Shown in pieces: positions 60,390-62,314 of a stretch of 64,000 nt of DNA (position 1 is the stretch's first letter; each line of letters starts with the position of its first letter). The stretch spans positions 18,128 through 82,127 of the forward strand of contig VBBS01000033.1 in NCBI GenBank assembly GCA_005888745.1, given 5' to 3'. The translations under genes were made by a program, and so were the position numbers. Below the pieces are notes generated by a model, which searched no databases, was not told the origin of the DNA, and saw only the letters and a program-made list of their open reading frames with translations. This stretch comes from Candidatus Bathyarchaeota archaeon. GTDB lineage: Archaea; Thermoproteota; Bathyarchaeia; 40CM-2-53-6.

Positions 60390-61451
60390 CTATGACCAAC
60401 CTCTCGCAATCGCGCGCGAGTAGGCCTTCCAGTAAGGGTCCACGCTAGGATAGCGCAGGGACCGCTTCCCTTTACTCGTAGATCCTTTGCAACCTCGAAA
60501 CTTCGAAGTTAGCCTCCCCACAATCTGCGAAGGAATTCCCCGTGAAGACAATGTGGCCAATATCTTACCCGACTTGGCTGGTCTGGAAGCGATGATGAGG
60601 CTTCCCTCGCTCAAAGAGACCATCGGGTCAATCCCGAAAAGCTCGCACAACATCTGGGTTTCATCGCTGATCTGAATCTCTTCTAGATCCACTATCAAGC
60701 CGAGGTTGGATGCCGATGTCAACTCGATCATCCCGGCGATTACTCCACCTTCCGTCGCATCGTGCATTGCTGTGACGCCGCTTTGTCGGACCCCTACTGA
60801 TGATGCCGTTAGCGCATCTTCCACTGTACTCACTTTGTCGAGATAGTTCCACGCCTTGTCGAACAGTCTAGCGCCGAGGGCCTTTCTCACGCTCTGCGGA
60901 AATGTACGGGTTAAGACTGCGGTTGTCTCGATGGCCGCTCCCTTTGTTAATATGATGTCGTCTCCATCTCGAGCCATGCTTGATGTTACATACCGGTCAT
61001 CGGGACCCGTGGCCATCACGACGCCACCCCCAACGATCGTGTAGTCTATGCCCGCATATCTTCCTGTGTGGCCACCAATAATGGACAGTCCCAGCCTCTT
61101 GCATTCCCTGTGAAAAGACCTCCAATATTTTCCAAAGTTTAGGTCATTAAGGGTTGGTGGGAGATTGAAGTCAAAGAGTCCGTACTCTGGGGAGAATCCG
61201 CTCGTCGTGAGATCCGAGGCCAATAGATGAACTGACAGCCACGCTGATGCTTCTGGGCCTAGTGAAGGAATGTATGATAAAGGATCGGTGGTCGCTGCCA
61301 GTACCCGGCCACCACTGAGCCGAACAATCGAGTTGTCAACGCCGAATGAAGGGCCTATGATTATTTGCGATCGTGAAGCGCCCAAGGATCGATAGATTAC
61401 GGACTCTAGGATATTTCGCCCCGCTTTGCCAAGCCTGAGAGATCTGGGCAT
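60390..61451 (-). CDS. AIR synthase-related protein (HypE/ThiL-like fold)
   Basis: ATTDPLSYIPSLGPEASAWLSVHLLASDLTTSG, IIGGHTGRYAGIDYTIVGGGV, HDATEGGVIAGMIEL. Confidence 0.8.
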   Translation of the reverse strand: MPRSLRLGKAGRNILESVIYRSLGASRSQIIIGPSFGVDNSIVRLSGGRVLAATTDPLSYIPSLGPEASAWLSVHLLASDLTTSGFSPEYGLFDFNLPPTLNDLNFGKYWRSFHRECKRLGLSIIGGHTGRYAGIDYTIVGGGVVMATGPDDRYVTSSMARDGDDIILTKGAAIETTAVLTRTFPQSVRKALGARLFDKAWNYLDKVSTVEDALTASSVGVRQSGVTAMHDATEGGVIAGMIELTSASNLGLIVDLEEIQISDETQMLCELFGIDPMVSLSEGSLIIASRPAKSGKILATLSSRGIPSQIVGRLTSKFRGCKGSTSKGKRSLRYPSVDPYWKAYSRAIARGWS

Positions 61452-61461
61452 AGGGCAGGGC

Positions 61462-62127
61462 CTAATCGAAATGCTGGACGCGAAATGCCCTCTGTGCAGC
61501 CACGACGAGTATCAGAGCAACAGGTATCCAAGCTAGGTCAATGAGCGTCGCGAAGTCGAAGGATGCGAGCCAAAAACCTTGGACCAATCCGGAGGAGCTG
61601 CAGCCTGGTTGAGTGCAGTAAAACGCGGTAAACGAGTAAATTGGCCAGTCGATGAGAAAGAAGGCAACGGTCTCATAGACGGTCGCGAGGGCCATTCCGA
61701 AAGCCAGAAGATGTCTTGTTTTTTCTCTAAATCTGTGAGCAATTAGAACCTCGGGTGCTCTCGCTAATACTATTCCTGGAATGAAGGTCAATGCCCAAGT
61801 GGAAGGGGCCTCGCCAAAGACGAAAATGTTGATAGTCTCACCAATCGCTGAACCGATTGCCGTCGACCAGAGGCTGACTTTACGAGAAAACAGAACAGCG
61901 ATGGCAAGATAGAAGGGAGGTGCAGCCGTAATTTCTCCCAGCGGGTAGGGAAGTGTGAAACCAAACAGGACATTAGATATGATCGTTCCAACGGCCACTA
62001 GCGCCGAAAAGGCACCAATCCTCGCTATGTCCAGCACTGGATTATTTGGATGAGTGTCTCTCTGAGAGGTACCAGATGCTGATGGCGCCAGTGAATTCTG
62101 TACCGAACCATGTCGACGTTGGTTCAT
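61462..62127 (-). CDS. ECF transporter S component-like membrane protein, TPP-riboswitch controlled
   Basis: about 6 TM segments, GAFSALVAVGTIISN...LGEITAAPPFYLAIAVLF...IGSAIGETINIFVFG; strong SD AAGGAG. Confidence 0.75.
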   Translation of the reverse strand: MNQRRHGSVQNSLAPSASGTSQRDTHPNNPVLDIARIGAFSALVAVGTIISNVLFGFTLPYPLGEITAAPPFYLAIAVLFSRKVSLWSTAIGSAIGETINIFVFGEAPSTWALTFIPGIVLARAPEVLIAHRFREKTRHLLAFGMALATVYETVAFFLIDWPIYSFTAFYCTQPGCSSSGLVQGFWLASFDFATLIDLAWIPVALILVVAAQRAFRVQHFD

Positions 62128-62175
62128 TTTTTCTCCTTATTGTGGGAGCGAGAAGACAGGCAGGAATCAGGCTTC

Positions 62176-62272
62176 GTATCGTCCCTCCGCCGGCATTACC
62201 CGGATCAGGTTCAAAGGGTCGATGGCAAGCGAAGCCATCCTCTCAGCCGGGTTTATCCCAGCTCCCCGTTGA
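62176..62272 (-). promoter_or_regulatory. TPP (THI element) riboswitch
   Basis: Minus strand ACGGGGAGCTGGGATAAACCCGGCTGAGAGGATGGCTTCGCTTGCCATCGACCCTTTGAACCTGATCCGGGTAATGCCGGCGGAGGGA matches the conserved aptamer core. Confidence 0.95.
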
Positions 62273-62291
62273 CAGAGAATAGAAGTGGCTG

Positions 62292-62300
62292 CGTATTTAA
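62292..62300 (-). promoter_or_regulatory. archaeal TATA box (TTAAATAC) for riboswitch operon
   Basis: Minus-strand GCTTAAATACGC about 20-28 nt upstream of the aptamer 5' end. Confidence 0.6.
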
Positions 62301-62314
62301 GCGCTGGCCGAAGG

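Follow-up and report, generated by a model that had tools for sequence, protein, structure and literature searches.

What does a TPP riboswitch control in a soil archaeon that, judging by its genes, seems to lack vitamin B1 synthesis? The question is raised by a two-gene operon in a 64-kb stretch of Bathyarchaeia DNA, which was analysed as a whole and is referred to below as the window. Scanning of the entire window with cmscan gave a full-length match to RF00059 (model positions 1–105) at 62165–62279 of the minus strand, which scored 64.9 bits against a gathering threshold of 54.3 (E = 1.8e-10). This was the sole Rfam match in the window and the only TPP riboswitch in the 2.2-Mb query genome. 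The riboswitch claimed by the initial annotation has thus passed the covariance-model check proposed along with it, and the archaeal host was also guessed properly: the genome belongs to Bathyarchaeia, and the nearest named records to the locus are Bathyarchaeota MAGs. Other elements described there are all present on the same minus strand. The predicted TATA box (CTTAAATA, 62294–62301) ends 14 nt ahead of the aptamer, and in the sister species compared this motif is kept at a similar position. The leader between the aptamer and the start codon (62128–62164), a putative expression platform, contains the Shine-Dalgarno sequence AAGGAG (62133–62138) located 5 nt upstream of the ATG codon of a 221-aa ORF (61462–62127), which encodes a putative ECF S-component of a family designated here S1, a probable thiamine importer. 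After a gap of 10 nt it is followed by a 353-aa ORF (60390–61451) for a protein of the AIRS/PurM superfamily, a candidate thiamine kinase.

RF00059 was matched in 163 of 257 Bathyarchaeia genomes, representing 73 of 109 genera, and in 160 of these genomes the match exceeded the curated cut-off, so the opinion that TPP riboswitches are sparse in archaea does not hold for this class. Genes found downstream of the riboswitch in relatives encode ThiT, ThiW, ThiC, ThiDN-like and CytX-like proteins (within the class, ThiT and ThiW were identified by Pfam scan of the downstream genes, while the other three were called from sequence). Since the switch recurs so widely in front of thiamine genes, it represents a standing regulon of the class rather than a stray copy, and we consider both the riboswitch and the regulon firmly established. 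An archaeal precedent is given by THI elements of Thermoplasma (PMC2974657), which are likewise archaeal TPP riboswitches but belong to one small group and not to the larger part of a class. As stated in 2021, the fluoride switch of Thermococcus kodakarensis was the sole archaeal riboswitch shown experimentally (PMC8241225). In bacteria, for instance in Lactococcus lactis, the same aptamer family is placed ahead of the thiamine S-component gene thiT (PMC8862789); the query locus differs from this arrangement by its archaeal host, TATA promoter, another S-component and the AIRS gene included in the operon.

At many loci the riboswitch lies immediately ahead of the start codon, which points to translational control. 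Among 94 distinct riboswitch loci there are at least 36 in which the ATG follows the conserved GGGA (within GGAGGGA) at the 3′-end of the aptamer by 3–16 nt. With such a short distance the aptamer strand itself may double as the Shine-Dalgarno site, which would be hidden upon TPP binding. In the query genus the leader is longer and contains a separate AAGGAG instead of the aptamer-borne Shine-Dalgarno sequence. A CUCC/GGAG hairpin covering this site can be drawn for the query and was seen in several leaders of the genus; comparison with shuffled sequences lends it little support beyond chance. Based on the position of the aptamer we infer, therefore, that expression is controlled at the level of translation.

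The product of the first gene (61462–62127) was not matched by any Pfam or NCBIfam model, including those of ThiT (PF09515 and TIGR02357). Its assignment to ECF S-components in the initial annotation is nevertheless plausible: two S1 homologs, from loci L042 and L051 (62% and 31% identical in the alignment), scored above the PF07155 (ECF S-component) cut-off. S1 is thus a probable S-component family that has no name in the libraries searched (Pfam and NCBIfam). Comparison of the S1 profile with PDB gave only chance matches, while the ThiT profile found ThiT structures. The most telling evidence for the S1 substrate came from a shared chromosomal site, bordered by a thiolase/ChsH2 pair on one side and an acetoacetyl-CoA ligase gene on the other. 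Sister species carry there either S1 or true ThiT, which in the syntenic locus L038 passes the TIGR02357 equivalog cut-off, and the AIRS gene is kept in both cases. In one sister genome (G008, L036 6088–6601) a frameshift or an assembly error has divided S1 between two reading frames, and AIRS is intact. The order S1–AIRS is also found in other Bathyarchaeia families and once outside the class (L165). The exchange of S1 for ThiT at one locus under one switch suggests that S1 transports thiamine or a closely related compound; uptake of such a compound by the operon is thus likely, and we infer that thiamine itself is the ligand of S1. The ECF module would be encoded elsewhere, and EcfT, which the initial annotation had suggested to look for, was indeed found in the query genome (G000; PF02361, E = 3.4e-22).

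Identity of the second protein (60390–61451) required more care. Both AIRS domains were recognized above their cut-offs (PF00586, 38.4 bits; PF02769, 64.4 bits), while all specialized models failed: HypE (TIGR02124) gave 60.9 bits against the required 251.6, ThiL (TIGR01379) 54.2 against 184.15 and SelD 43.4 against 125. HypE is, therefore, the closest NCBIfam model by score, and one could think of a hydrogenase maturation factor that came to lie beside a thiamine transporter by chance. In HypE the C-terminal cysteine carries the cyanide precursor, but none of 96 members of the AIRS family has cysteine among the last 15 residues. Family search revealed no NiFe hydrogenase (PF00374) in the query genome or its genus, so the company of hydrogenase genes, in which the initial annotation saw a possible sign against its own reading, was not found. 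Together with the thiamine context recurring from genome to genome, this rules out the HypE identity and makes such a coincidence hardly conceivable. Resemblance to ThiL in AIRS fold (by profile) and in thiamine context also does not amount to identity, since a canonical ThiL is encoded elsewhere in the query genome (G000:C49:6125–7072, 273 bits). Coexistence of the two proteins in the same genomes disfavours AIRS as a replacement of ThiL as well. The AIRS protein thus represents a family distinct from both HypE and ThiL. AlphaFold models obtained from few sequences (4 for AIRS and 3 for the S-component) had mean pLDDT of 40 and 38, respectively, and were too poor for use.

The functional context of this family was studied with operon-type AIRS, defined by E-values below about 1e-100 and present in 92 copies in 91 Bathyarchaeia genomes. 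A listed TPP riboswitch was found upstream on the same strand for 71 of the 92 copies at a median distance of 619 nt, and rescanning of 12 of the remaining unlinked loci revealed it in 7 more. In contrast, a second AIRS paralog is nearly universal in the class, and none of its 58 copies has a listed riboswitch upstream. Among 55 loci examined the gene just upstream of AIRS was ThiT in 39 and S1 in 13, and some of these genes touch or overlap the AIRS start. Elsewhere in Thermoproteota the orthologs adjoin ThiDN (with ThiC or a CytX-like permease), ThiN, ThiE with a YkoE-type transporter, or ThiW, and the query AIRS groups in the tree with ThiDN-adjacent orthologs with support of 100/98. Scanning of 15 AIRS loci outside Bathyarchaeia with Rfam revealed no TPP riboswitch. 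Canonical ThiL exceeded the cut-off in 11 of 24 outside-class genomes with AIRS orthologs, and the rest had weaker ThiL-like matches, which include other AIRS proteins. The tie between the AIRS family and thiamine rests, consequently, on two independent lines: linkage to the riboswitch and S-components within the class and thiamine neighbours outside it. The part of the initial annotation that placed this gene in thiamine metabolism is thereby supported by recurrent context, while its designation as HypE/ThiL-like gives way to a family of its own.

Gene order around AIRS varies. A KaiC-like ATPase gene is inserted between ThiT and AIRS in one set of genera (L006–L008, L015, L016, L022, L080, L124 and L135), while in several distant genomes a SAM methyltransferase-like gene stands between S1 and AIRS or just before AIRS (L051, L071, L073, L074 and L152). 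In L005, L011, L014, L044, L161 and L198 the gene after ThiW encodes a small P-loop NTPase. In another Bathyarchaeia family a distant AIRS protein, which in L213 and L214 scores 65–83 bits to the family profile, is encoded just upstream of a riboswitch-controlled ThiC, ThiT or ThiW-like gene (L049, L213 and L214). In L089, L092–L095, L145 and L151 an ECF-type S-component gene immediately precedes that of the second AIRS paralog, and pairing of an S-component with AIRS may be a general theme extending to other substrates.

Which step of thiamine metabolism may lack an enzyme is suggested by the gene content, assessed with draft genomes and family models. Searches of this kind found neither ThiC nor ThiN in the 21 genomes of the query's taxonomic family, no ThiE over the cut-off in the members of this family searched and no TPK over the cut-off in any of 131 genomes; ThiL is kept in the query's family. 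Among genomes at least 90% complete, ThiN was found in none of 28 with operon-type AIRS and in 32 of 43 others (p about 5e-11), and the disproportion persisted when genera were counted (1 of 15 versus 33 of 41, p about 7e-7), though neither p-value takes account of relatedness above the genus level. ThiL was registered in 27 of the same 28 genomes. Since ThiL without a TMP synthase needs some other source of TMP, the AIRS gene lying beside a thiamine importer becomes the obvious candidate for a thiamine kinase. Ten genomes at least 90% complete have ThiL but neither ThiN nor operon-type AIRS, and several of them contain a lone riboswitch-ThiT, which means that another source of TMP exists in the class.

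Based on this data one can suppose that the locus is a TPP-repressed thiamine salvage operon, in which AIRS makes TMP from imported thiamine and feeds ThiL; the chances of this reading seem to us slightly better than even. When TPP is scarce, the leader would permit translation to start on the S-component gene, while binding of TPP to the aptamer would decrease expression of the operon. The S-component, joined with the ECF module encoded elsewhere, would import thiamine, the AIRS enzyme would use ATP to phosphorylate its hydroxyethyl group giving thiamine monophosphate (TMP), and TPP would then be formed from TMP by the canonical ThiL encoded elsewhere. The initial annotation assumed that the protein acts on thiamine phosphate. 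That is the step of ThiL already present in the genome, and conversion of thiamine to thiamine phosphate is a more economical assignment. The kinase role itself, deduced from the gene context and the pathway gap, may equally well prove right or wrong and is testable. The same step is performed in bacteria by the thiamine kinase ThiK, which belongs to an unrelated protein family. To our knowledge, no alcohol kinase has been described in the AIRS superfamily, and no report of a thiamine kinase from the PurM/AIRS superfamily was found in the openly accessible literature searched. A further argument against this role is that outside-class orthologs adjoin genes of de novo synthesis, a setting in which phosphorylation of thiamine would be of use only for salvage. 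As a guess, a kinase for the thiazole hydroxyethyl group, whether free or within thiamine, would also fit the orthologs linked to ThiDN and ThiW.

Alternatively, AIRS could be a second TMP kinase doubling ThiL, with either thiamine phosphate or thiamine imported by the S-component. No thiamine enzyme other than ThiL is known in the AIRS superfamily, the AIRS profile resembles ThiL structures, and both ThiT-only and ThiDN genomes share the step from TMP to TPP. However, 54 bits are far from the ThiL cut-off of 184, canonical ThiL accompanies the gene in the query, in nearly all good genomes of the class and in those 11 outside-class genomes, and no source of TMP would remain unless TMP itself is imported, so we find this alternative unlikely. 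Position of orthologs beside ThiDN, as well as between ThiDN and ThiW, would rather suit phosphorylation of a precursor, such as hydroxyethylthiazole, imported by S1. But the partner of AIRS in most loci is ThiT, and with ThiN absent from the query family and most operon genomes and ThiE not detected in that family, there would be no enzyme to build TMP from a phosphorylated precursor, which leaves this option with a low probability. The class-wide lack of TPK invites one more supposition, that AIRS is a one-step thiamine pyrophosphokinase or has some other catalytic or regulatory role in the thiamine regulon, with which the additional KaiC-like ATPase and methyltransferase genes of some operons and pairing of the second paralog with a different S-component are compatible. 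A one-step enzyme would make ThiL needless, yet it is kept almost everywhere along with the gene, and we regard this supposition as quite improbable.

Returning to the thiamine kinase preferred here, its extension to the class reads as follows: an enzyme of the PurM/AIRS superfamily, unrelated to ThiK, would work with ThiT or new S-components under TPP riboswitches in many Bathyarchaeia and form together with ThiL a TPK-free archaeal route of salvage. We put this forward tentatively, with chances a little short of even. An enzyme family and a transporter family are thereby proposed for as yet unassigned steps of thiamine salvage, and both can be examined by simple assays. Bathyarchaeia are abundant and mostly uncultured, and the occurrence of the TPP switch in the majority of their genomes makes riboswitch control in archaea testable, and the operon suggests that much of Bathyarchaeia depends on external thiamine.
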